Part shown: piece by piece, positions 7,374 to 19,746 of the stretch
How the letters are laid out: each line of letters starts with the position of its first letter
Position numbering within the stretch: the stretch's first letter is position 1
Origin: an uncultured Thiotrichaceae bacterium
GTDB lineage: Bacteria > Pseudomonadota > Gammaproteobacteria > Thiotrichales > Thiotrichaceae
Direction of reading: 5' to 3'
NCBI GenBank assembly: GCA_902727985.1
Contig: CACVAY010000061.1
Coordinates: forward strand, 1-32,296
Length of the DNA: 32,296 bases
Translations under genes and position numbers: made by a program
Notes under the pieces: model-generated
What the model was told of the DNA's origin: nothing
What the model saw: only the letters and a program-made list of their open reading frames with translations
Database searches by the model: none

Positions 7374-10300
7374 TTACTGTTTCTTGTCATGATTCAAACC
7401 AAGCTGCTCTGCATCAGCACGGTATCTAAATTGAATATAAGGGCCTTTGGCGGTGTAATCGCTATTATTAAAATCATCATCGCTAAAGCCCTCGAAATTA
7501 TATCCAAGGCTGAACCACATATTCTTACGCGGTGATGTGCCAACTGACAGTCCATAACCATATTCTGTCGTATCGGCGTCCCAGCTGCGCAAATATCCAG
7601 CATGCAATCCTACATCCCAGCTTTCATTGATGTTTCTGCGAACTTGTAATCTTCCCGTATCTACGGTGTTTTCAAATTCTTGGTTAAATTCGCTATCAAT
7701 GGTGTGTTTTATTCCATGATGAAGGCTTGCTTGAGTTTTATCGCCAATCTGTTTATTGATATGAATGTTATGAATGAATTTGCGTGTTTTAGATTTTGAT
7801 GTGTTATCAACCTGCTGATCCTGTTTGAAATCTAAACGCTGTAAAATAGTATAATCACTATCCTGTGGATGCCAAGCGCTACCAACACTGAACTCAGTTG
7901 TTTCAGTGGTTACTCCATTGTTTAGTTGCAAATCTGTAATGGATATAGAGGCTGATATATCACGACCTTTGCCGAGGTTTCTCAATAACCCGAAGCGTAA
8001 ATTAGTTTTATCTTCGCTGTCACCTTGTCGAATTTCCAATCGATTCGTCCAGCCCCAGTCATTATCACGATAACCCAAGCCAACAGAAAATGCTGTGTAG
8101 TTATCACGTTCTGCACCATAAATAGCAGGCTGATCTGCATCGACAGAATTATTTGTGGTTTCTTCTGAAGTTTTGAGGGTTTTTGCATGATCAACGCTGA
8201 TATCAGCGGTAATATGCTCTGTCAAACTCAGGCGTTGTTGTAGGCCTAATGTGCCAAAGGTGCTATCGCCATAAGCTGCTGATTCTCGGTCAATACTGGT
8301 TCTTGCGGTTGCGCCTTCCCATAGTTTTGAGGTTAGACCAACGCGATCAGTTACAGCTTCGGTTTGATCGCCTTTGGCAATTTCACGTTCAAGGAATAGG
8401 GCGACACCATCTGTAATGCCAATATCAGCACCAACAATGAGACGATCGGGATAGGCCTCAGCATCTCCAGAATCAAACGTACGAATGTTCTTTTCGACAT
8501 GTGATCTGAAGGTTAAACGGCCATTACCGGGAGTAAAACTACTTCCTAAACTTGCCAAGGTGCCACCACGCAGCTCAGTGTTCACTAACTCTCGGGTATA
8601 ACGTAAACCCGCATCAACGTGGCCTGAGACAAAACGTTGTTCCAACTCTATACTTGCCTGATCACGACGATTATCATTGTCGAGGTTATCCTGTCGGTAA
8701 ATATCACTGTTAAGTGTTAAGTCATCTTTAAGACGGTAATCAGCTTCTAAGCCATGTTTTTTTGTACCTTGGTCACTGATGTTTTGATGGCCTAGACCAA
8801 AATTACTGCCTTGCTGGCGAATATACGCTTTACCCGTTACTTTTTTGCTTTCTGTTTTTGCTTGCAGTAACCAGGCACTATCTTTGGTATTTGTATCGCT
8901 TTGAGCAAATTCACCTTTAAGTTCGATGTTCTCATTGAGTTTGTGGGTAATATCAACACCAACTAAATCACCCCCTTCATCATTGGCATTTTTCTCCTCA
9001 TGAATTGCACTGATGCCGGTTTCTGTGAACCCATCTTCACTGACATAGGCGGCACGGCCTGCTGCAACTAATGTTTTATTTGAATTACCATCAGTTTCAT
9101 AGTCAACAACAATAAAGTTAGGGTTGAGCTTTTCATCACGGCCTGGAACAGGGAATTTCAAGAATAAACTGCGTTGATCGTAGTCAATCGTATAATCCAC
9201 ATGCTCAGCTAATAAGCGTTGTGAGACTATCTGTTCAGGATGAAAACGGTCGCGTGTTTCAAGAGTAATAACTTCACTATTTGGGATGATGTTTTGGCTT
9301 AAATAATACAAGCCTGATGTGCCATCTCCAGGAATCTCATCTTGTTGGTGTTTTTGACGGGTGTAACTCACTGATATATTGCTGCGCATGTACTTGCCAT
9401 GATATTCGCTATGAATGCCATTTAATGTACGTTTATATTCAGATAACTCAGTAACAGTCAGGTTTGTTCGATAGTCACCAAACAAGAAATAAAATTGTTC
9501 TTTTTCAAGTTTGAGGAAGAGCTTCTTAGAGCTAGTCGCTTCATATTGGCTATAGGTACGATCTCCATAAACCGTATAAAAGGCTTCTGGGTCTATATTG
9601 CCTTGTAGTTGCGTACCCACATCGCTGTCTTCTTTAGCTGAGTCATAAGCAACCGTTAGTAAATACTTACCCTTAACTTTACCTTTTGCAAAGAAGGCAA
9701 TGCGACCATTTGAATAGGTGTCACTTTTGATATCTTTGTCGTTAAGGGTTTGAAGATTGCCAGATATCGTTTTGTGGCCAAGCGTTCCTTCTGCCAAGCC
9801 AACCAGTAACCATGTATCACGGATGTGTGGCTTCAGCCATACGCGACGTAATACAGAACGATTGTTATCTAAATAAAAACGTAGGGTGATTTCTCCCGTT
9901 TGTGTCGTCGGCTTTAGGAAAATCCGAGCAATACCTGTTTCATCAATATAATACTTATGCTGTCCAAAACTTTCTCCAAGATTCAAGTCAATACGTTTCT
10001 TACGTTGGTCATCAATTTGGTAGTCACCATCTTCAATAACGAAATAACCATGCGTATTTTTACGCATAGGGAAACCTTCTAAATCTTTAACTTCGATAAC
10101 GATCTCGGGTAGACTCTTACCATCAGCGGTCAAATTAGAGCGTGCTTCTAAAACTTCTACTGAAGCTGGTAGGCTTGAAAAATGGATGTTTTTAAACAGT
10201 GTTTTAAGAACTTTTCCTTTCTTATCTTTTAAAACCACTTTTAGTGTGTTTTCACGATTTTTAATATCGATATCAAGTCCACGATAACGGCTAACGCGTA

Positions 10301-12002
10301 CCGTTTTTTCCTTGTTCGTTGAGCTACCATCGTAATTTAATGCGTTGACCAGTTTGCCATTCAAGCTGACTTCAATTTTTTGCATGGGAGAATGCTGAAC
10401 AGCAACATCCGTTGATGCCACGGCAGGAACATAATTTTCAGGCGGCCACAAAATTTTGAATCCTGGTGTAGCGGTTGTAACAAATGTTTTACCGAAGTTC
10501 TCAAGTGGGTGGTCTATATCAGCTTCTAGTTCCTTATTCTTATTGCTCAACTTGTAATTAGCTTTTGTGGAAGCAGAGCCCTGAACATAAAAGTCTGCTC
10601 GCCAAAGACTTCCTTGTTTCAAATCTACAAATTGAGAATAATCTGAACCTGCAAATTGTGTGTTTTTCTTACAACTTAAAGGAGCGAACCCCTCAGGTAG
10701 ACTCTCTGGGTCCATCGTGATCACATGATTACCAGGCTTTACACCTTCTAGATGCCAGAAACCATCTTCATCACTTTGAGTACTACGACCTGTTTCTAAA
10801 TATATGCGTGCTTTTTCTAGTGCTGGAGCATCCTTTGCACATCCAATAAAGACGCGCCCCGTTAATATACTGGTTTCCTGCATCAGCTCATCAACCATCC
10901 GAATGGATGCTTGTGCCTTTTTTGAAGAAGAATTATCACTGATTGCTTGGGCGATATTGGTCGCCTCTTTATCAGGCGCACCTGCACCGATAAGTACACG
11001 ATAAGTTAACTTCCAGACATTATCTCTTGGCATATTGCCTAAGAGAAATGTGAGTTGGCGTCCTTGTTTGATGATTTGTGTATCATCAAACTGAACATCA
11101 TCAAGTCTAGCGGTGTTGTCTACATATCTAAAACCAGGAGGAAGTCGGTCATGAATACGTAAATTCAACAAATTATTTTCTAAGCCTGTTGTGTTGATAC
11201 TCAGTGTGTATTTTACAATATCGCCAATAGCAGCAGTTTCTTTATCTGCATTCTTAGATAATGTGATGAACTGTGATGGATCAATAAGTGCTGCAGTAGC
11301 GCTGATATCTGTACTATCAATATCATCTTGATAATTTACTCGAATCTTAGCGTCTTTTTGTACGGTTATGATGCCATCAAATGGGTTCGCAGTACTTCCA
11401 CTGGCTGATTGAATAGCACCCCGAAAAATCCCTGATGAGGGTTCTGTTTCGGTTAAAAGAATAACTTCGGTGTCGCCGGTTTCGGGGACTATGATGGTGA
11501 CGAAAATCGTTTCTCTCACGAGTGGGTCTGAATTCTGATCAAGGTCTTCTACTTGAATAATGATGGGTTCGTTGGCCACATAGAGGCTGGTTTCTTCGAT
11601 AGGGTGATTGTCGGGAACAGCGATGACTGTGCCATTGGATAGTACGAGTTCAGAAATAGGGTTAAAGGCTTTACCGCCATCATCGCTGCTATTGTAGGCA
11701 GCTTCTGGTAATGAAACAGGTGTTCCAGAATCAGTGATTTTATGAAAGCTGATAATTGAGGGCGTACGAGATGCCGTGGTCAAACCAGCACTACTACTGA
11801 TGCTCGTTGTTTTACCATCAAATAAGAAACTTGCTGTTACCGTATTGGTAATGAGTGTTTCAGGAGGCGTTGCAGCCTTAGAATTATTGCCCAATAAAGT
11901 GAAGAGCAAAATACCACAGACAAGTACCAGCCAAAGTATGTTTACTGCTTTGGCAAGTTTAAAGCTCTTGCTGCTCAAGTAAGTGATATTAGCCCTAAAC
12001 AT
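7374..12002 (-). CDS. DUF11 / carboxypeptidase-regulatory-like / outer-membrane beta-barrel protein, 1542 residues
   Basis: A very large exported protein. It has a long N-region and a hydrophobic core at about 20-38 ending SKAA, a probable signal peptide. A Cys-poor beta-rich region follows. A DUF11 domain lies at about 246-370 (ITLSKNADKETAAIGDIVKY, then HDRLPPGFRYVDN), then a carboxypeptidase-regulatory or SpaA-like domain at about 378-440 (TGRVFIGC, DEDGFWHLEGVKPGNHVI). Ig-like beta domains run to about 710. From about 720 to the end, alternating polar and hydrophobic strands, many aromatic girdles and a final strand GPYIQFRYRAD indicate a barrel of outer-membrane type. It is the last gene of the leftward cluster, 12 bases after a DUF11 gene. 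It may anchor or export the smaller DUF11 proteins; that is inference. No terminator is obvious in the 102 bases to namZ. Confidence 0.85.
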   Translation of the reverse strand: MFRANITYLSSKSFKLAKAVNILWLVLVCGILLFTLLGNNSKAATPPETLITNTVTASFLFDGKTTSISSSAGLTTASRTPSIISFHKITDSGTPVSLPEAAYNSSDDGGKAFNPISELVLSNGTVIAVPDNHPIEETSLYVANEPIIIQVEDLDQNSDPLVRETIFVTIIVPETGDTEVILLTETEPSSGIFRGAIQSASGSTANPFDGIITVQKDAKIRVNYQDDIDSTDISATAALIDPSQFITLSKNADKETAAIGDIVKYTLSINTTGLENNLLNLRIHDRLPPGFRYVDNTARLDDVQFDDTQIIKQGRQLTFLLGNMPRDNVWKLTYRVLIGAGAPDKEATNIAQAISDNSSSKKAQASIRMVDELMQETSILTGRVFIGCAKDAPALEKARIYLETGRSTQSDEDGFWHLEGVKPGNHVITMDPESLPEGFAPLSCKKNTQFAGSDYSQFVDLKQGSLWRADFYVQGSASTKANYKLSNKNKELEADIDHPLENFGKTFVTTATPGFKILWPPENYVPAVASTDVAVQHSPMQKIEVSLNGKLVNALNYDGSSTNKEKTVRVSRYRGLDIDIKNRENTLKVVLKDKKGKVLKTLFKNIHFSSLPASVEVLEARSNLTADGKSLPEIVIEVKDLEGFPMRKNTHGYFVIEDGDYQIDDQRKKRIDLNLGESFGQHKYYIDETGIARIFLKPTTQTGEITLRFYLDNNRSVLRRVWLKPHIRDTWLLVGLAEGTLGHKTISGNLQTLNDKDIKSDTYSNGRIAFFAKGKVKGKYLLTVAYDSAKEDSDVGTQLQGNIDPEAFYTVYGDRTYSQYEATSSKKLFLKLEKEQFYFLFGDYRTNLTVTELSEYKRTLNGIHSEYHGKYMRSNISVSYTRQKHQQDEIPGDGTSGLYYLSQNIIPNSEVITLETRDRFHPEQIVSQRLLAEHVDYTIDYDQRSLFLKFPVPGRDEKLNPNFIVVDYETDGNSNKTLVAAGRAAYVSEDGFTETGISAIHEEKNANDEGGDLVGVDITHKLNENIELKGEFAQSDTNTKDSAWLLQAKTESKKVTGKAYIRQQGSNFGLGHQNISDQGTKKHGLEADYRLKDDLTLNSDIYRQDNLDNDNRRDQASIELEQRFVSGHVDAGLRYTRELVNTELRGGTLASLGSSFTPGNGRLTFRSHVEKNIRTFDSGDAEAYPDRLIVGADIGITDGVALFLEREIAKGDQTEAVTDRVGLTSKLWEGATARTSIDRESAAYGDSTFGTLGLQQRLSLTEHITADISVDHAKTLKTSEETTNNSVDADQPAIYGAERDNYTAFSVGLGYRDNDWGWTNRLEIRQGDSEDKTNLRFGLLRNLGKGRDISASISITDLQLNNGVTTETTEFSVGSAWHPQDSDYTILQRLDFKQDQQVDNTSKSKTRKFIHNIHINKQIGDKTQASLHHGIKHTIDSEFNQEFENTVDTGRLQVRRNINESWDVGLHAGYLRSWDADTTEYGYGLSVGTSPRKNMWFSLGYNFEGFSDDDFNNSDYTAKGPYIQFRYRADAEQLGLNHDKKQ

Positions 12003-12014
12003 GATTGCTACAAC

Positions 12015-13013
12015 TTAGTTGATTGTTGCAGTAATTGTCATGGTTGCTGTTTCACCAGCATCAAGATCAAAAGCAGCTGATGTTACTGTTCCACCGGATT
12101 CGGTAGGTGTTGTGACAGCAGCATCACCGTCGGTTAATGAAGCACTTACAAATGTTACATCACTTGGAAGAGGATCACTAATTACGATACCTGCAGCAGT
12201 TGCTGCACCTGCTGCATTTGATACTGTAATTGTATATTCAATCGTAGCACCTGGAATTCGCTTTGGAGCATCAACACCTGTGCCAGTAACATCAGAGCCA
12301 TTAATACTCATTTTGGTTACTGCATCCGTTTTGTTAACAGTAATATCTGCAGTTGCAATTGTGTAAGTATTCGTTGCAGAGTGTGCTGCATTTCTGTCAG
12401 CACCATCTTCAGTAGTACCTGTGCTATCTGCAAATACAGTTTGAACAGTTGCAGGGTCATCTGCCCCAGTAGACTGTGTTACGCCATTAGCTGTGGCTTT
12501 TAAATCAACTAATGCAGTTTTTCCTTGGTTTACTGATGAGCTACTGTCCGGGATATCACAATTAACGGTGATCGTCGTCGTTGCACCAGCGTTGATTGTG
12601 ACACTTGTTGGCGTAGTACAGCTGTCAAGGTCGAAATCATCTGTTGCAACATCTGCTTTAGTGGCAAAGTTAAAAGTTTCATTGCTATTACCTTCATTTT
12701 TTACCGTGAAAGTAATGGCTTGTGCATCTGCGCTAGGTACAACGGTTACACCAGAACCTGCAGTAACGAGTACGTCGATTTTCTTATCTACTTTGAACGT
12801 TGTTGCTTCACCTTGGCCAACACCAGGAACAGCGTTACCGCCATCTTTTGATTCAATAGGTGTTTGGTCTACCAATCCAACTTTGTAGGTAATAGTAGCT
12901 GTGTTGTTAATGTCCGTACCGGCGAGTGTGCCATCGGCCCATAAACTTGATGATGCGGTAAAGGCTGCAAGACTAAAGAATAAGGGGATTGTTCTAATTA
13001 TTGTTGTTTTCAT
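12015..13013 (-). CDS. Secreted DUF11/Ig-like surface protein, 332 residues
   Basis: A signal peptide (MKTTIIRTIPLFFSLAAFTA, cleaved near SLWADG) is followed by a mature protein very rich in Thr, Ala, Val, Asp and Gly with few Lys, Arg or aromatic residues, a composition usual for bacterial surface-layer or fibre subunits. The mature start GTLAGTDINNTATITYKV recurs as AGILAGTSIKNTVEVTYF in the neighbouring 350-residue protein. A middle beta-domain carries two Cys (CTTPTS and NCDIPDSS). The C-terminal 95 residues form a DUF11 domain (ITVNKTDAVTK through PGATIEYTITVSN to ISDPLPSDVTFVSA). It ends ITATIN. A strong stem-loop lies in the transcript just upstream of the gene. It may be the most abundant product of the cluster; that is inferred only from composition and the stem-loop. 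Confidence 0.83.
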   Translation of the reverse strand: MKTTIIRTIPLFFSLAAFTASSSLWADGTLAGTDINNTATITYKVGLVDQTPIESKDGGNAVPGVGQGEATTFKVDKKIDVLVTAGSGVTVVPSADAQAITFTVKNEGNSNETFNFATKADVATDDFDLDSCTTPTSVTINAGATTTITVNCDIPDSSSSVNQGKTALVDLKATANGVTQSTGADDPATVQTVFADSTGTTEDGADRNAAHSATNTYTIATADITVNKTDAVTKMSINGSDVTGTGVDAPKRIPGATIEYTITVSNAAGAATAAGIVISDPLPSDVTFVSASLTDGDAAVTTPTESGGTVTSAAFDLDAGETATMTITATIN

Positions 13014-13072
13014 TGTTATTATCTCTTGGTTTGTTTTTTATATTTTGTAGTTTTTATTGTTTTTTTGATGAT

Positions 13073-13110
13073 ATGGGTCTAACCCTCTAGGGGATAAAGG
13101 CTAAACCCAT
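13073..13110 (-). other. Intra-operon RNA stem-loop between two surface-protein genes
   Basis: Read as minus-strand RNA, bases 13110-13099 (AUGGGUUUAGCC) pair with 13084-13073 (GGUUAGACCCAU) over 12 base pairs, two of them G-U. Read as plus-strand RNA the same two positions would be mismatches, so the structure belongs to the leftward transcript. It is not followed by a U-tract but by an A-rich leader running to the next ATG at 13013. It sits 7 bases after the stop of the 166-residue gene. An mRNA processing or stabilising site is more likely than a terminator. Confidence 0.55.
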
Positions 13111-13116
13111 TGGGTG

Positions 13117-13617
13117 TTAAAGTAAGCGAACTTGAAAGCTCACAGCTTTTCTTTCTTGAGGTTGTAGGTCTCCTTGATATTGCCAACGGATATGAGTGTA
13201 ATCAGATGGGGGGGCAGGATACATCTTTCCATCACTACCACGTACTTTAAGTTGTGCTGGTTTTGCCCATTGCTTACCGCCATCGATAGAATAGACAATG
13301 TTACAATTGGCACCACTTGCGGTATTGGCCAGATACACCGTGTGTTTAGGAATAGGGTTGGTAATATTGATATTGTCTGCTGGTTTACCACTAATATTCG
13401 TGAAGAATGTGGAATACTGAACCACCTCACCTGGCAGTACTTTAGCCGCAGGAACACGCTTATAAGTGCGCTCGCCGTTTTCATTGACAACAGCGATAAT
13501 CTTTTCGGCTTTAGAGTCAACATTAAGATGCCCCTGAGCAGCCATTGCCGTTGTACTGGCAAATATGACTCCGCTAATGGATAAAATGGAGAGGCTTTTT
13601 TTTATTATCGAAAACAT
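13117..13617 (-). CDS. Small secreted DUF11-like protein, 166 residues
   Basis: The signal peptide is clear (hydrophobic SILSISGVIFASTTAMA, cleavage after AMA). The mature 140 residues form one DUF11-like Ig fold: LPGEVVQYSTFFTNISGKPA, then ITNPIPKHTVYLANTASGA, then a C-terminal strand ERKAVSFQVRLL. A single mature Cys is present. An AAAGGCAA precedes the ATG. It is the second gene of the leftward cluster, 17 bases after the 350-residue gene. A run of seven C on the coding strand (13208-13214) is a minor slippage risk. Role unknown; a capping or adaptor subunit alongside the larger DUF11 proteins would fit but is not shown by the sequence. Confidence 0.82.
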   Translation of the reverse strand: MFSIIKKSLSILSISGVIFASTTAMAAQGHLNVDSKAEKIIAVVNENGERTYKRVPAAKVLPGEVVQYSTFFTNISGKPADNINITNPIPKHTVYLANTASGANCNIVYSIDGGKQWAKPAQLKVRGSDGKMYPAPPSDYTHIRWQYQGDLQPQERKAVSFQVRLL

Positions 13618-13634
13618 ATTGTTGCCTTTTTTTA

Positions 13635-14687
13635 TTAATTGATTTTATATGAAATGGTTAATACATGTGACGTAGGAGCTGAAACATCTCCTAATGAAAG
13701 CGTAATGGCGTCATGACGTGATTGATTAAAATCTCCAACATCTGCGTCTTGTTGATCTGAAAGAGCGGTTCCATTCAAGAACATGCTGCCAGCGATATAA
13801 TTCATATTATCCGGGGTAGGGTCTTGGATAACGATCTGTTCAATGGTTCCGTTATCACCAACAACATCAATGTTTATTTGATAAGTAACCTTAGCGTTAG
13901 TGATGACTGTATCGCCACCAAATGGATCAACAACCGATAGAACTGTTTTATGTAGATTAAGCTGAACAGGAGATACTTGATAAATACCAACCGCAGAAGC
14001 AGTGCCTAATTCAACAAGGTTCACAAGAGCGGTTCCTTTATCTCCGACATTCTCAAGCACACCTCCAAGCGGTTTTGTTGTTGCTCCAGGTGTTGTTGAT
14101 ACTGCACTTAACGCTACATGTCCTTCATCATCTTTATTCAGTAAAGGAGGAATTGTTGCCTCTATATAAGCAATGATTGATTGATCCGCTGTCAGCAACG
14201 GATGGCCTTCGTTATCTGTTGCAATTGAAGAAGATGCTATGGCATTGATATAGGGAGTGTCCGTGCTTTGAAGGCCAGGTAGGTCGTTAGTTTCAATCCA
14301 TAATTTTAGGTTGTTAGGCTCAAATTCATCTCCTGAAACTAATGGATTCATCTCCAGTTTGTATGCTTCATTACCATTGCCTGTATTGGTGATCTGATAG
14401 GACAACACTACATCAGTAGCAGGTGTTGCGACGACTCTTGCTGGCGTATCTAGTGATACAACCGAAACATTAATGATTTCATCAACAGTAAACGCTGACG
14501 ATGCATACTCCGTTTTGCTTTGATCCGTTGAATCATTAATAAAGTAGGTAACTTCAACGGTGTTTTTTATTGATGTGCCCGCTAATATTCCAGCAGCATA
14601 AACATTATTAAAGAGTGTTATTAAGCCTAAAAATATGAGTATAAAATATGTTACTTTGTATAAATTAGTATTATATATATTCTTCAT
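13635..14687 (-). CDS. Secreted DUF11/Ig-like surface protein, 350 residues
   Basis: First gene of the leftward surface cluster. The N-terminus has a hydrophobic core (YFILIFLGLITLFNNVYAAG) typical of a signal peptide cleaved near VYAAG. The mature start AGILAGTSIKNTVEVTYF matches that of the 332-residue protein downstream, and both end in a strand closing with Ile-Asn, so the two are divergent paralogues. A first Ig-like domain covers about 30-130; the C-terminal third is DUF11-like (LNLHKTVLSVVDPFGG, IVIQDPTPDNMNYIAGSMFL, ISYKIN). No Cys is present in the mature protein. No clear Shine-Dalgarno precedes the ATG; the leader is almost pure A/T. Likely a structural surface subunit. Confidence 0.82.
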   Translation of the reverse strand: MKNIYNTNLYKVTYFILIFLGLITLFNNVYAAGILAGTSIKNTVEVTYFINDSTDQSKTEYASSAFTVDEIINVSVVSLDTPARVVATPATDVVLSYQITNTGNGNEAYKLEMNPLVSGDEFEPNNLKLWIETNDLPGLQSTDTPYINAIASSSIATDNEGHPLLTADQSIIAYIEATIPPLLNKDDEGHVALSAVSTTPGATTKPLGGVLENVGDKGTALVNLVELGTASAVGIYQVSPVQLNLHKTVLSVVDPFGGDTVITNAKVTYQINIDVVGDNGTIEQIVIQDPTPDNMNYIAGSMFLNGTALSDQQDADVGDFNQSRHDAITLSLGDVSAPTSHVLTISYKIN

Positions 14688-14729
14688 TTTTATATTTTCT
14701 ATTTTTTATAGTCATTAATTTTTTATCAT

Positions 14730-14759
14730 TTTATATGGGGGTAATAGAAATATAAACAA
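14730..14759 (-). promoter_or_regulatory. Candidate sigma70 promoter for the leftward surface cluster
   Basis: On the minus strand TTGTTT (14759-14754) and TATAAA (14735-14730) are separated by 18 bases, 43 bases upstream of the ATG at 14687. The match is reasonable, but the surroundings are so AT-rich that chance matches are likely. Confidence 0.4.
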
Positions 14760-14775
14760 TTGATAATTTTATTAG

Positions 14776-14789
14776 AGTTAAGATTAACT
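14776..14789. promoter_or_regulatory. Perfect dyad AGTTAA-GA-TTAACT, candidate operator
   Basis: A 14-base inverted repeat with a 2-base centre lies in the divergent control region, just upstream of the proposed leftward -35 box. It has the size of a small dimeric regulator site. No regulator gene is found in the locus. Confidence 0.3.
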
Positions 14790-14879
14790 ATTGCTGAATT
14801 ATTTATACCGTTTGTCGGATGAATGCATTTTTTTTTATTTTTTCATATATATTCGCTGAAATATGAGTCTGTGGCTTTC

Positions 14880-14908
14880 GTTGATATAAGTCAATGTTGA
14901 CATAAGTC
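14880..14908 (+). repeat. Two 13-base direct repeats upstream of the TSP3 gene
   Basis: GTTGATATAAGTC (14880-14892) and GTTGACATAAGTC (14896-14908) differ at one base and start 16 bases apart. The second copy contains the TTGACA of the proposed promoter. Tandem same-orientation sites overlapping a -35 box suggest a response-regulator type operator, which would control the rightward arm of the surface locus. Confidence 0.45.
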
Positions 14909-14923
14909 TTTAATATGTAATAT
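14897..14923 (+). promoter_or_regulatory. Candidate promoter for the TSP3-OmpA arm
   Basis: A consensus TTGACA at 14897-14902 is followed after 15 bases by TAATAT at 14918-14923. The spacing is shorter than ideal, which is common in activator-dependent promoters. The gene start is at 14958, with AAGGGG as ribosome binding site at 14946-14951. Confidence 0.45.
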
Positions 14924-14957
14924 TTTTTGCTGAAAATAAAACGCTAAGGGGCGAATA

Positions 14958-17900
14958 ATGGGCAATAATAAATATAACTATGCTCTTAAAAAAACTACGC
15001 TAGGTACTTTATTACTTACATCATCTTTCTTGTTTACTTCAACGGCATTCTCTGCCACTCAATATACTGTTTCACGAGTAGAGCCTCTTCAGTCAACGAC
15101 TAACAGTGATTCTATTGTTTACCAAGTTGATTTTAACGGTTTGTCAGTTCCTGGTTTAGAGCCTAGCGACTTTTCATTGTTTTTAGCTAGTGGGGCCCAA
15201 AAGGTCGACACAGCAGAGGCTCTGGCTAATGATACGATTTATAGAGTAACAGTATTGACGAAAGACGCTGGTCAGGTTGCTATTATTCTCAAAGAATTTG
15301 TTACTGATGATAATGGTGTCGATTATAATTTCCATGTTGATTCTAATAATTTACCTATTTATACCATTGATAAAATCGCTCCTCCCACTCCAACGCTGAC
15401 TTCTCCAGAATATACATTATCAAACAGACCAGAATTTACGGGGGATCAACTAGATGAAAGCACTGGGAAGTCGTTAGCAGAACCAAAATCGGTGGTGACA
15501 GTTACTTTGGTGGATAATCCAGGGACGTGTTCTGCGCTGGTGAGTGATGAAGGGACGTGGACTTGTTCCATTCAACCTGCTGTCGATTATCAATCGTATA
15601 TCAGTCATATCACCGCAACCGATGAGGCTGGTAATGTCAGTGAAATCGGGGAAAATCCGATAGACGTATTAGATCCATTTGGGGACGACGACAACGATTC
15701 ATTAAGCAATAGTGTAGAGATAAATATCACAAAAACAGATCCAACACATGATGATAGTGATCGTGATGGCGTTCCTGATCAGATAGAAGTTGGCGGTGAT
15801 GCAAATAATCCACTGGATTATAATAATGACGGTATTATTGACGCGAAGGATCCTCATAATGACTCTGATACTGATGGCCTGAGTAATTTGCTAGAACTTC
15901 ATTTAGGTTTGCTACCTATGGATCCTGATTTTGATAACGATACGATACTTGATGGGGTTGAGGCTGGAGCATTAGGGTTGGACTCCGATAATGATGGTAT
16001 TGATGACAAATTTGATGTTGACAGTACCAACGGCGGTGATACGAACGAGGATGGTATTGATGATGATGCGATTTTACGAGATTCCGACTTGGATAGTGTC
16101 GCAGATGCAAAAGACAAGGATAGCGATAATGATGGTTTACCTGATCTTTTCGAAGGGGTAGATGACCCGGATAACGATAATATACCCAATTATCTGGATC
16201 TTGATTCCAACGGGGATAATATTAGCGATGCGGATGCATCGGGTACAACAGGCAATGATTCCGACGGGGATGGCATTGATGACACCTTTGATGTTGATAA
16301 TACGGGTGGTACTGATGCGAATGGAGATGGCATTGATGATGATGTCGTAGGTTCAGATGTCGATAGTGATGGTATTAACGATGCGATCGATGATGATAAC
16401 GATAACGATGGTATTACCAACATTGTTGAAGGTAATGACGACATAGATGGTGATGGCAAAGGCAATTCTACTGATACAGACTCCGATGGGGATGGTGTTC
16501 CAGATAGTATTGAAAGTACAGAAGATATAGATGGTGATGGGAAGGGGAACTATCTTGATACAGATTCAGATAATGACGGTATCAGTGATAATGATGAAGC
16601 TGGCCTTACAGGCAATGATCATGACAACGATGGCATTGATGATGCATTAGATGTCGATTTAACGAATGGAAACGATCTTGATAATAATGGTATTGATGAT
16701 GATCTTCCTTTGGATAGCGATAATGACGGCACTCCTGATTACCAAGATGTAGATTCTGACAATGATGGTATCCCTGATATCCTGGATGGAACGGGCGATT
16801 ATGATGGTGATGGTATCAAAGACTATCTTGACCCAGATGCAGATAATAATGGAATCAATGATGGTGTAGAAATCGGAATAACCGGAAATGATCATGATAA
16901 TGATGGTATTGATGATTTGTTTGATGTTGATTTTACCGGTGGAATAGATCTCAATGGCGATGGTATCGATGATAATGCTCTACCAGATTCAGACAATGAT
17001 GGCAGACCTGATCATATAGATCCTGATACCGATGGTGATGGTATTCCTGATAGTGTAGAGGGCGTTGGGGATGCTGATGATGATGGCAAGTCAAATCATA
17101 TCGATTTAGACTCCGATAATGATGGTATCAGTGATAGCGATGAGGCTGGAGTTACTGGCTTAGACTCCGATAATGACGGCATTGATGACAAGTACGATGT
17201 AGATATTACCAATGGAATAGATGCCAATAATAATGGTGTTGATGACTTCTTTGAAAACCAAGTCGGGGGGGATTATTTAAATCCTGACAATGATACTGAT
17301 AAGGATGGGCTTCCAAATTCTACCGAGAAATATCTTGGCACTGATCCAACAAACCCGGATTCTAATAACAATGGTATTTCTGATGGAGATGAAGATACCG
17401 ATGGTGACGGGCTAACGGATGCCATGGAGGTCTTACTTGGCTTGGATCCCAAGGATGGTGATTCTAATAATAATGGTATTGGTGATGCCTATGAAGATTC
17501 CGATGGTGATGGTATTAGCAACATTGTAGAGATTTTTCTCGGTCTTGATCCGACCAATCCTGATAGTGATGGGGATGGTTCGAAAGATACTACAGTCAGT
17601 GACTGGGATAATGATGGCATTAATAACTCACAAGAATTGGGGGGCTTACCCTTCGCCGATAGTGATCAAGACAGCATTCCCGCTTACCTTGATGATAATG
17701 ATAACGATAATGAGATAGGTGATGAAGACGGTAGTATCGAGTTTCCTTTTGATATTGATGGGGATGGACAGTTAAACGTTCTGGATGCTGATGATGATGG
17801 TGACAAGATTCAAACATTATCAGAAGGTCTCTCTGATTCAGACTCGGATGCTATTCCAGATTATCTTGAATCTAATATCCATGATTTTGATGGGGATGGA

Positions 17901-18695
17901 AGTGCGGATTATGTAGATAATGATGATGAAAATGATGGATTGTTGACATCGGGTGAAATCAACTCATCTATCAATAATATTGCTAATGATAATGATCATG
18001 ACTCCATACCTGATTATCTTGATGGTGATAGCACTAACATCAATAATTTGATTGATGGGTCCGGTGATAGTGATAAGAATGGTATCAGTGATACTGCCGA
18101 ATGTGCACAGAAGTTTCCTTGTAAAGATCATGATTTTGATGGCGTACCAGACTTCATCGATACCGATAATGATAATGATGGCGTAAGAGATGCAGAAGAA
18201 ATAGGGCAGAATCCATCGCAACCTATCGATACAGATGAGGATGGAATTCCGGATTATCAGGAACCTAATAATCTGGATAGTGATGGCGATTCTATCGTTG
18301 ATTATCTTGATACTGATGATGATGGTGATGGCACTTTTACACGTATAGAACTCCCCGTAAACAAAGATGCTGATGGTGATGGTATTCCAGATTATCTTGA
18401 TGGTGATACGAATGTGTTATCGCCCAACGGAGAATTTGATGGGGATGCTGATGGGGATGGTGTTCTTGATAGGCTGGAGTGTACGACTGCTCCTTTTTGC
18501 CAAGACAGTAATGACAATGGCATACCTGATTATCGTGAACACAACGGTTTATCGGGGAATGTCATTAATACCCCGCCAGGGGTAACGACAGTATCAGGTG
18601 GAGGTGGTGGTAGTTTTTCTCCATTTGCATTGTTACTTGGATTATTGGGCTTCGTAATACGCCGTTATAAGTTGATGGTAAGGAATAAAAACTAA
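14958..18695 (+). CDS. Thrombospondin type 3 repeat surface protein with GlyGly-CTERM-like tail, 1245 residues
   Basis: An exported, extremely acidic protein. The signal peptide ends near TSTAFSA. The N-terminal 230 residues hold beta-rich and bacterial Ig-like domains ([19 protein letters not shown]; two Cys in [15 protein letters not shown]). From about 240 to 1205 it is an almost unbroken array of DxDxDGxxD calcium-binding units of thrombospondin type 3 kind, partly ordered as 91-residue modules. The C-terminus has a Gly-rich [11 protein letters not shown], a hydrophobic [12 protein letters not shown] and then RR with a basic tail: the GlyGly-CTERM pattern processed by rhombosortase in other gammaproteobacteria. 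No rhombosortase gene is in the window. It is 10 bases upstream of the OmpA gene, so they are co-transcribed. Expected to fold as a rigid Ca2+-dependent stalk at the cell surface. Confidence 0.9.
15960..17417 (+). repeat. Higher-order 273-base (91-residue) modules inside the TSP3 gene
   Basis: The phrase (D/V)EAGxTGxDxDNDGIDDxxDV recurs five times. Aligned codons fall at 15963, 16236, 16599, 16872 and 17145. Three intervals are exactly 273 bases and one is 363, which equals 273 plus 90 (30 residues). This shows that the TSP3 array grew by duplication of a 91-residue block, with one block carrying an extra 30-residue unit. Such tracts can change copy number by recombination. Confidence 0.8.
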
Positions 18696-18705
18696 GGGAA
18701 TCCTC

Positions 18706-19746
18706 ATGAAACATATACATTATAAAAATACACTCGCTTTTGTCATTGGCTCCTTGTTTGTAATGACACAAGCTGCCGCGGCAGAGTTTAATAAACTCGA
18801 AGATAGCTGGTATTTAGGAGGCTCTGTAGGGTTATCTGGGCTTGACCCAGTTACATCAACAGGCTTTGAAGTAACCGATGATAGTGATATCGGCAAGAAA
18901 ATTTATGCGGGTGTTAATATCACTGATCAAGTTGGTTTAGAAGCATTCTGGAATGACTTAGGTGCGGCAGGCGTTTCTGGTACTGGAGGGGTTGGCGAGG
19001 CAAGTTATAGAGCATTGGGCTTTAATGCTGTTTACAACCCACCCATTAAAGTGGGGAGGGTTCAACCTTTTGGTAAGGTTGGAGCAGCAAAGATGTCAAC
19101 TAAATCTTCAGGTAATATCTCAATCACGCAAGAAAATCAGTTCTCACTATTTGGAGGGGTGGGGGCAGATATAGAATTAAATAAAAACTTTGCGATTCGC
19201 ACGGAGTTTGAATATTTTACAAAAGACGCCAATCAACTTAGTGTCGGTGTAAAGTGGGCACCACGAGGCCATATTCCAAAGAAAAAAGTGATACCGAGTG
19301 CATTGCCTTATAATTTTGGTGTGCAGCCGACGAAAGTCATTACTCGCGTTGTTACTCAAGCACCACCAAAAGTAACGATTCTCAATAAGTCACTAGCCGG
19401 TGGATCAAACTTTGCTACAGGAAGTGCAGTTTTAACTCTTCAAGGTAGACAAAATGTAGATACGATTGTTAATCAAATAAAAAATAATCAAATAAGGGTT
19501 CATCATATCAAAATTGTTGGCCATACAGACTCTGTTGGGAAGCCAAAGCAAAATTTACTTTTGTCTAAGCAGCGAGCTCAATCGGTTGCAACTTATCTTT
19601 CAAGGCACGGTATCAGTAGAGATCATATGACTATATTGGGGGTAGGAGACAATCAACCTGTCGCGAGCAATCGAACTGATTATGGGCGCGCTCAAAATAG
19701 ACGTGTTGAGATTGCGGTAAGTGGTGCGAAAATGCTTATTAAATAA
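18706..19746 (+). CDS. OmpA-family outer membrane protein with N-terminal beta-barrel
   Basis: The signal peptide ends QAAAA, followed by a barrel of about 155 residues (WYLGGSVGLSGLDPV through FGGVGADIELNKNFAIRTEF to LSVGVKWAPRG). A Pro/Lys-rich linker leads to the OmpA peptidoglycan-binding domain at about 225-340, with FATGSAVL, HIKIVGHTDSVG, LLLSKQRAQSVATYL and YGRAQNRRVEI; the Asp and Arg that hold diaminopimelate are present (GHTDSVG and NRRVE). AAGGGAATCC precedes the ATG, 10 bases after the TSP3 gene. It would tie the outer membrane to the cell wall and could provide an anchor for the co-expressed TSP3 protein. Orthology to E. coli ompA is not claimed. The gene ends 29 bases before a strong bidirectional terminator. 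Confidence 0.92.
   Translation: MKHIHYKNTLAFVIGSLFVMTQAAAAEFNKLEDSWYLGGSVGLSGLDPVTSTGFEVTDDSDIGKKIYAGVNITDQVGLEAFWNDLGAAGVSGTGGVGEASYRALGFNAVYNPPIKVGRVQPFGKVGAAKMSTKSSGNISITQENQFSLFGGVGADIELNKNFAIRTEFEYFTKDANQLSVGVKWAPRGHIPKKKVIPSALPYNFGVQPTKVITRVVTQAPPKVTILNKSLAGGSNFATGSAVLTLQGRQNVDTIVNQIKNNQIRVHHIKIVGHTDSVGKPKQNLLLSKQRAQSVATYLSRHGISRDHMTILGVGDNQPVASNRTDYGRAQNRRVEIAVSGAKMLIK

Follow-up and report, generated by a model that had tools for sequence, protein, structure and literature searches.

Introduction

The usher barrel of chaperone-usher pili has 24 strands, and that of SprA, the type IX translocon, has 36. SprA is a very large single-chain outer-membrane barrel whose partners carry C-terminal Ig-like domains (6h3i, 6h3j). 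In chaperone-usher pili (FimA/FimH/FimD), the barrel gene adjoins genes for several Ig-like exported proteins, the subunits combine an N-terminal extension with an incomplete Ig-like fold, and tip-type proteins lack the extension (in part from the available portion of PMC9715654). According to the same portion of that source, the archaeal thread filament Saci_0406 is held together by head-to-tail strand complementation and a proposed inter-subunit isopeptide bond. For the DUF11 domain, now called CLIPPER, a 2025 survey (available part of PMC12617251) reports an intramolecular isopeptide bond between Lys and Asn, with Asp as the presumed catalyst and the triad Lys 715, Asp 748 and Asn 806 in the solved domain 9IFR. 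Here, we describe a divergent six-gene locus (positions 7374-19746) of an uncultured Thiotrichaceae bacterium. It lies in a window of 32,296 nucleotides (nt), which is one whole contig (C61) of a draft genome of 3.54 Mb, and consists of a leftward cassette, D4-D3-D2-D1, and a rightward pair, R1-R2.

We propose, with a probability of roughly 0.45, that D4-D3-D2-D1 is the surface-fibre operon of a widespread undescribed family, in which subunits would join head to tail by strand complementation and D1 would serve as the anchor. The resemblance to chaperone-usher pili lies in the gene neighborhood and, as proposed from sequence, in the extension, the incomplete fold and the tip-type proteins. Unlike those pili, the cassette matches neither an usher family model (D1, Pfam up to E 0.1) nor a PapD-type pilus chaperone model (D2, D3 and D4, Pfam and NCBIfam), its barrel region is predicted to have 35 strands, and its candidate acceptor is a DUF11 domain with isopeptide residues. 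Autotransporter and POTRA/FhaC domains were likewise not found among the Pfam matches of D1 up to E 0.1. With 9IFR the cassette shares the domain family and corresponding Lys, Asp and Asn positions; the bonds described in the available part of PMC12617251 are within one chain, whereas the terminal domains of the cassette lack the Asn strand, and another protein is proposed to supply it.

The threads are archaeal and without an outer-membrane barrel, their bond runs from the N-terminal amino group to an Asn two subunits apart, and the term DUF11 does not occur in the available portion of PMC9715654. D1 resembles SprA as a very large single-chain barrel with Ig-like partners, but SprA is not among the two Protein Data Bank (PDB) sequences that match the D1 profile, and type IX C-terminal domain models in NCBIfam have no match up to E 0.1 in D1-D4 or R1. 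As in SpyTag/SpyCatcher, a strand with one reactive residue would join a body with the other; that split is engineered, whereas the split in the cassette is proposed to be natural. The gene set is not described in the open-access literature that we searched (titles and abstract beginnings on DUF11 or on donor-strand and isopeptide topics), in agreement with an earlier sequence-only reading to which the locus had looked like an undescribed surface assembly system, although such absence is no proof.

A conserved four-gene cassette

On the reverse strand, D4 (13635-14687; 350 residues) is followed after 17 nt by D3 (13117-13617; 166 residues), after a further 103 nt by D2 (12015-13013; 332 residues) and after 12 nt by D1 (7374-12002; 1542 residues). 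The sequence-only reading had held all six proteins of the locus to be exported, and signal-peptide-like N-termini were indeed recognized in six of six, by eye. It had also described the small leftward proteins as DUF11/Ig-like, a description that domain models bear out in part. In searches with Pfam and NCBIfam models, in which matches up to E 0.1 were inspected, D1 (27.4 bits, residues 247-356) and D2 (49.3 bits, residues 247-331) exceed the PF01345 (DUF11) cut-off of 24.6 bits and D3 stays below it at 19.7 bits. D4 has no DUF11 match in Pfam and a weak B_ant_repeat match in NCBIfam (E 0.0025, below the family cut-off), yet our own DUF11 hidden Markov model (HMM) aligns with the terminal domain in 15 of 15 D4 proteins.

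A search for D1 in 57 related genomes recovered long, high-scoring orthologues in 15, all of one family. Their neighborhoods hold D4-D3-D2-D1 in constant order and orientation between changing flanks, making it a conserved cassette. Named relatives of D1 come from Leucothrix, Cocleimonas and 'Thiotrichaceae' records, together with one Desulfuromonas and one Campylobacteraceae assembly. All four genes stand in order in 10 of 22 named loci (with D4 partial in L045), 11 loci run into a contig end before all four have appeared, and one, from Desulfuromonas (L058), is a variant in which D3, two further exported proteins and D1 are followed by a second D3 set. The first gene of L039, L044, L046 and L054 scores slightly better to D2 and was named D4 by its place and alignment. 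A fifth gene, usually with the same type of terminal strand, is common downstream of D1; the window is without it.

Profiles of D3 (A4) and of the barrel (A3) were run on the same 369 gammaproteobacterial genomes and counted at E < 1e-25 and E < 1e-150, respectively, with weaker rows excluded. D3 was found in 30 genomes, a D1-type barrel in 28 and both in 26 (hypergeometric 1.8e-33, a value that ignores the relatedness of the genomes). Upstream placement of D3, on the same strand and contig and within 10 kb of a barrel, was seen at 23 of 33 D3 loci; four of the other 10 were fetched, and in one of these, G263, the contig ends inside a barrel-like open reading frame (ORF). Consecutive D3, D2-like and barrel ORFs occur in 10 of 20 fetched loci of this class sample, three of the 20 are of type B (see below), and in others one partner has diverged, is hidden under an overlapping frame or is cut off. 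D3 matches extend to 37 of 60 family genomes (E to 1e-20) and 33 of 299 phylum-sample genomes (E to 1e-15). Plasmids of Novosphingobium, a Synechococcus-like cyanobacterium and Kovacikia carry D1-like and D3-like matches with a spacing of about 3 kb, and those of Thermus and Deinococcus have partial matches of the D3 type. The sequence-only reading had seen in the leftward genes a group of subunit-like proteins with an outer-membrane-type barrel and had suggested looking for conserved co-occurrence of all six genes; for the leftward four the neighborhood is conserved far beyond the genus, with the order kept in the 10 named loci and D3 accompanying the barrel in the 26 genomes.

Three arrangements were distinguished. 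Type A is that of the window; type B has D3, a protein of ~1000 residues, a barrel of ~2000 residues, often an OmpA-type protein, a protein of ~900 residues and sometimes a giant adhesin; and in type C a giant DUF11 or repeat ORF adjoins a barrel protein of about 1200-1800 residues. Barrel and DUF11 matches fall within one ORF in G146 (11,777 residues) and G135 (3,046 residues), a fusion that argues for joint function. The G146 frame (contig C2, around 440001-468135; L145, L146) carries DUF11 repeats with the barrel near its end.

The source genome (G000) itself also holds a type B set, at C117:31937-55410 (L021, L022), with a D3-like protein, a 985-residue protein, a 2141-residue barrel, an OmpA-like protein, a 900-residue DUF11 protein and a 2763-residue adhesin with L-type lectin, CshA_NR2, GEVED and SdrD_B domains. 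A type B-like set lies on the Acinetobacter haemolyticus plasmid p4 (L157, 6313-19820), typed as mobilizable, and comprises a D3-like ORF, DUF11 proteins, a 2020-residue barrel ORF, an OmpA family protein and a 978-residue DUF11 protein. This set is preceded, a few kb away, by arsenic genes and closely followed by a transposase. In G119 (L118, 6341-11525) the barrel gene is spread over three frames, perhaps as a decayed copy or through an assembly fault.

Truncated terminal domains and N-terminal strands

Our DUF11 HMM was built from 109 full internal domains and spans 124 positions. Of 164 complete domains, 147 keep its Lys, 154 its Asp and 152 its Asn, at positions that correspond to the 9IFR triad reported in the available part of PMC12617251. 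D1 has the whole triad inside one domain (residues 247-356; 10935-11264, reverse strand), where K250, D285 and N349 are invariant in 11 sequences. The terminal domains of D2 (residues 247-332; 12018-12275, reverse strand) and D4 (residues 261-350; 13638-13907, reverse strand), which are the proposed acceptors, have Lys and Asp and no Asn strand. K228, D280 and N37 are invariant in D2 (15 sequences, alignment A5), as are K247, D289 and N42 in D4 (10 sequences, alignment A6). In D3, Asp is kept in 0 of 14 sequences and no Lys is conserved.

The last domain of D2, of D4 and of two type B subunit families runs to about HMM position 92 of 124, where the protein ends; the missing part is the Asn-bearing strand. 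By a strict rule, 49 of 67 chain subunits end in this truncated way, compared with 3 of 34 control DUF11 ORFs whose ends are intact, the rules being somewhat different (body HMM with at most 3 residues left for subunits, full HMM with at most 4 left for controls). The terminal domains of the chain subunits keep Asp in 67/67 and Lys in 62/67.

Just after the signal-peptide-like stretch, these proteins carry the motif AGTxIxNxAxxxY, which was searched as a looser regular expression. It is present in 64 of 67 chain subunits versus 1 of 37 control ORFs with intact N-termini. Barrel proteins also have it (D1 18/21, type B barrels 9/12), and it was found in none of the D3 proteins (0/14), fifth genes (0/16) and adhesins (0/4) and in one of 11 distant DUF11 proteins. 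The motif occurs 26 times in 507 other ORFs, of which 17 are, by eye, barrels or partners outside our lists. In the window, the proposed donor strands lie on the reverse strand at residues 31-46 of D2 (12876-12923, around N37), residues 36-50 of D4 (14538-14582, around N42) and residues 44-62 of D1 (11817-11873). The last of these, judged by eye to be the mature start, contains N53, a nearly invariant residue across 11 sequences. By window-scoring of Asn positions, the best N-terminal Asn ranks first in 18/31 D2, 10/15 D4, 0/10 and 0/11 of the type B subunits, 1/21 D1 and 0/12 type B barrels. For the D2 of our locus, N37 is the best-scoring Asn, and for its D1, N53 comes second after the true triad Asn, N349.

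The barrel protein D1

D1 is ordered as an N-terminal Asn strand, an Ig-like region, one complete DUF11, a carboxypeptidase-regulatory-like domain, Ig and Big_1-like domains, and a large C-terminal beta-barrel region (residues about 851-1527; 7422-9452, reverse strand) that no Pfam or NCBIfam match covers. A structure model of residues 372-1542, built from 21 sequences, has a mean predicted local distance difference test score (pLDDT) of 71.7 and a predicted template modeling score (pTM) of 0.48, and shows small beta domains followed, from residue 851 onward, by 35 strands of at least 8 residues. Its PDB fold matches are many kinds of outer-membrane barrels and Ig-type proteins, many of them tied, and include Fiu (Z 16.1, root-mean-square deviation (rmsd) 8.1, 311 residues aligned) and SprA (6h3i; Z 13.1, rmsd 12.4, 439 aligned). 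By sequence, phmmer found no match for D1 among PDB entries, and a 9IFR chain matches D1 profile positions 248-367, which is the DUF11 region (E 2.8e-6). Residues about 728-1040 (8883-9821), the first third of the barrel, on their own match proteins that carry TonB-dependent receptor or hypothetical annotations in Sinorhizobium, Phyllobacterium, Roseivivax and others; this part may therefore belong to a wider barrel family.

Proposed fibre assembly

On our reading, D2 and D4 would be subunits exported by the Sec pathway, with an Asn-centered beta-strand at the mature N-terminus as donor and, at the C-terminus, a DUF11 (CLIPPER) domain that stops before its Asn strand and keeps Lys and Asp as acceptor. 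Each donor strand would complete the acceptor of the neighboring protein, and the proteins would link head to tail into a chain. The base, and perhaps the exit channel, would be D1, which has a donor strand, a very large putative outer-membrane barrel and no open acceptor; the tip would be occupied by acceptor-only proteins, such as the large adhesin-like partners of related loci and possibly the product of the fifth gene. D3 is the barrel's most constant partner; being DUF11-like and without the reactive residues, it may, at a guess, act as a periplasmic chaperone or adaptor.

The chains could also be sealed by Lys-Asn bonds; should Lys and Asn meet across chains, the fibre would be covalent. 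The fullest version of this idea, in which the Lys/Asp body and the Asn strand of the next subunit act as a natural 'tag and catcher' and form spontaneous interchain isopeptide bonds, yielding a sortase-free pilus with a non-usher barrel of ~35 strands in many Gram-negative families, we regard as doubtful.

Several observations weigh against the fibre reading. Three genomes with D3 (G127, G248 and G309) have no barrel in the 9 to 20 kb of flanks fetched, and the quality of the D1 barrel model is moderate, as the scores given above indicate. The reactive Lys is absent in 5 of 31 D2 proteins (kept in 26/31), the other subunit groups being complete. Among the three truncated controls, two come from genomes in which no barrel was found (G278, G373). 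Domain boundaries may also simply be shifted, with nothing missing. In score, the N-terminal segments resemble the missing DUF11 strand only modestly: median tail-HMM scores of D2, D4, the two type B subunit families and D1 are 1.6, 2.9, 7.8, 5.0 and 5.0 bits, against 99% shuffle levels of 6.4, 4.5, 4.6, 6.8 and 4.3, levels that the medians of D2, D4 and one of the type B subunit families fail to exceed. The 99% level of the background, which itself includes proteins of the system, is passed by only a single protein in each of four groups. Comparison of the N-terminal segments by hhalign, with crude signal-peptide cuts, gave no clear match to the tail; the one exception was the type B barrels, where a second alignment was weak (P 0.0055).

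The ranking of Asn residues adds to these reservations. The N-terminal Asn also comes first in 8/14 D3 proteins and 4/16 fifth genes, both without the motif, so that ranks alone do not discriminate. The median score of fifth genes (-2.5) is not far below those of D2 (0.0) and D4 (-0.7), and in the D4 of the window N73 outranks N42. In D2, the N-terminal segment is placed confidently (pLDDT near 90), which could mean that it packs in its own chain. The proteins compared are grouped by homology, and the counts are thus not independent. Foldseek and VIA-align searches with D2 returned many tied Ig-like rows and no informative family, the similarity being to the general Ig-like fold, with Caf1M one among many (Z 8.4 to 8.8).

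The two truncated DUF11 proteins from G278 (C209) and G373 (C54; L189, L190) stop at the same point as the chain subunits, and may reflect either a divergent barrel or a counterexample.

Alternative explanations

The rival that survives best, although we consider it unlikely, holds that D1 is a SprA-like translocon recognizing the C-terminal DUF11 strand as a sorting signal, so that D2, D4 and other DUF11 proteins would be independent secreted surface proteins and no polymer would form. The strand count of the D1 barrel is about that of SprA, which also gives the longest alignment among the fold matches listed, but this match is tied with those of porins and TonB receptors. A beta-strand-like C-terminal ending was found in 134 of 201 operon ORFs against 26 of 209 others, by a regular expression and with both classes impure. 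In a pilot on distant DUF11 ORFs, such endings appeared in 11/12 from genomes with the system and 0/6 from genomes without it; however, these ORFs came from D3-profile matches, which favor such ends, and two cut ORFs and one not found had been dropped. A wider sample was hand-picked among the PF01345 matches listed, with one ORF per genome, genomes with only type C barrels left out and six ORFs cut by contig ends dropped. Truncated ends occurred there in 1/12 ORFs from genomes with D3 versus 2/22 from genomes without; among the 34 ORFs kept, L180 shows no DUF11 and is maybe in the wrong frame, and two of the D3 group (G201, G298) end in a strand like that of the fifth gene. The N-terminal Asn strands, moreover, are left unexplained by a sorting signal.

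A genome-wide C-terminal sorting signal had been a candidate in its own right; it failed in the wider sample and was demoted to the rival just described.

Less likely still, D1 may itself be a fibrillar adhesin, with its N-terminal DUF11/Ig part pointing outward from its own barrel and D2-D4 coating or stabilizing it without polymerizing. D1 does have DUF11, Ig and Big_1-like domains of its own, some relatives (for example in Cocleimonas) have extra DUF11-like repeats, and the giant fused DUF11-barrel ORFs exist; the constant presence of D2, D3 and D4 and their donor- and acceptor-like ends are left unaccounted for.

The sequence-only reading had proposed a surface layer, fibre or matrix; for the leftward four we favor the fibre, and a lattice of D2 and D4 around the cells, as S-layer, sheath or extracellular matrix with D1 as tether, seems improbable. 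In its favor are a weak match between an anammox S-layer protein model and D1 residues 124-239 (E 1.4e-6; 26 bits, where the cut-off is 1400) and the commonness of DUF11 proteins as surface components (available part of PMC12617251). Against it are the lack of SLH domains in the six proteins (Pfam, up to E 0.1) and the patchy distribution of strong D3 matches in the family genomes, unlike that of an essential lattice.

The R1-R2 pair and the surroundings of the locus

On the forward strand, R1 (14958-18695; 1245 residues), a Big_6/TSP3 repeat protein with a Gly-rich, hydrophobic and basic tail, is followed after 10 nt by its partner R2 (18706-19746; 346 residues), which has an OmpA-type barrel and an OmpA domain of the peptidoglycan-binding type. 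The layout of six adjacent ORFs, four leftward and two rightward, agrees in coordinates and strands with the sequence-only reading. That reading's assignment of R2 to the OmpA family is likewise upheld, with OmpA and OMP_b-brl matches well above the Pfam cut-offs. For R1, it had named TSP3 repeats and a GlyGly-CTERM-like tail: Big_6 and TSP3_bac matches are slightly under the Pfam cut-offs, and the tail is visible by eye but has no NCBIfam match up to E 0.1. The source genome encodes a rhombosortase (G000:C36:9013-9474; 145.7 bits against a cut-off of 84), a possible processing enzyme for the R1 tail.

Adjacent homologues of R1 and R2 occur in 8 of 60 family genomes (G000, G001, G004, G005, G011, G016, G021 and G022), and the pair is a unit of its own. 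In G000 and G004 it adjoins the cassette, and in G003 the contig ends within an R1 homologue whose start stands divergently beside D4, hiding R2. G001, G016 and G021 (the last 83% complete) have the pair and show no type A D1 match, in G005 and G011 it lies apart from the cassette, and in G022 both contigs end at the critical place and hide the arrangement. Among the 10 named loci with all four cassette genes, R1-R2 adjoins just one, L037. The second pair locus of G005 (C14; L231, 2396-5383) has R1-like and R2-like parts in one 995-residue frame, a natural TSP3/OmpA-type fusion.

The sequence-only reading had taken the six genes as one surface system. The divergent position of R1 beside D4 in three genomes of the genus, with R2 in two of them, favors this idea, and local cooperation of the pair with the cassette within the genus is possible; its separate inheritance in other genomes weakens the six-gene unit, for which we see a slim chance. 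Since the pair is separate from the cassette, the R1 'calcium stalk' and the R2 'wall anchor' are probably not cassette parts. The same reading had assumed one control region. As geometry alone this stands, with 270 nt (14688-14957) between the divergent halves, although promoter-like sites in it are in no excess over shuffles (35 versus 42.8, sd (standard deviation) 6.2). The flanking genes are ordinary and include, to the left, zinc alcohol dehydrogenase, esterase, RecQ and NamZ types and, to the right, a sodium:solute symporter and a carbonic anhydrase; in G+C content the six genes (0.384 to 0.427) come close to the flanks (0.426 and 0.428).

Implications

Conservation alone defines a family of outer-membrane barrels that has no Pfam model and comes with a constant set of partners. 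If the fibre reading is right, Gram-negative bacteria would have a further route to surface fibres, with a barrel family of its own and subunits that may need no enzyme to become covalently locked. Many proteins that at present carry just the label 'DUF11 domain-containing' or 'hypothetical' would gain a role, and the system would offer a clear test of natural inter-subunit isopeptide chemistry and new parts for protein ligation.

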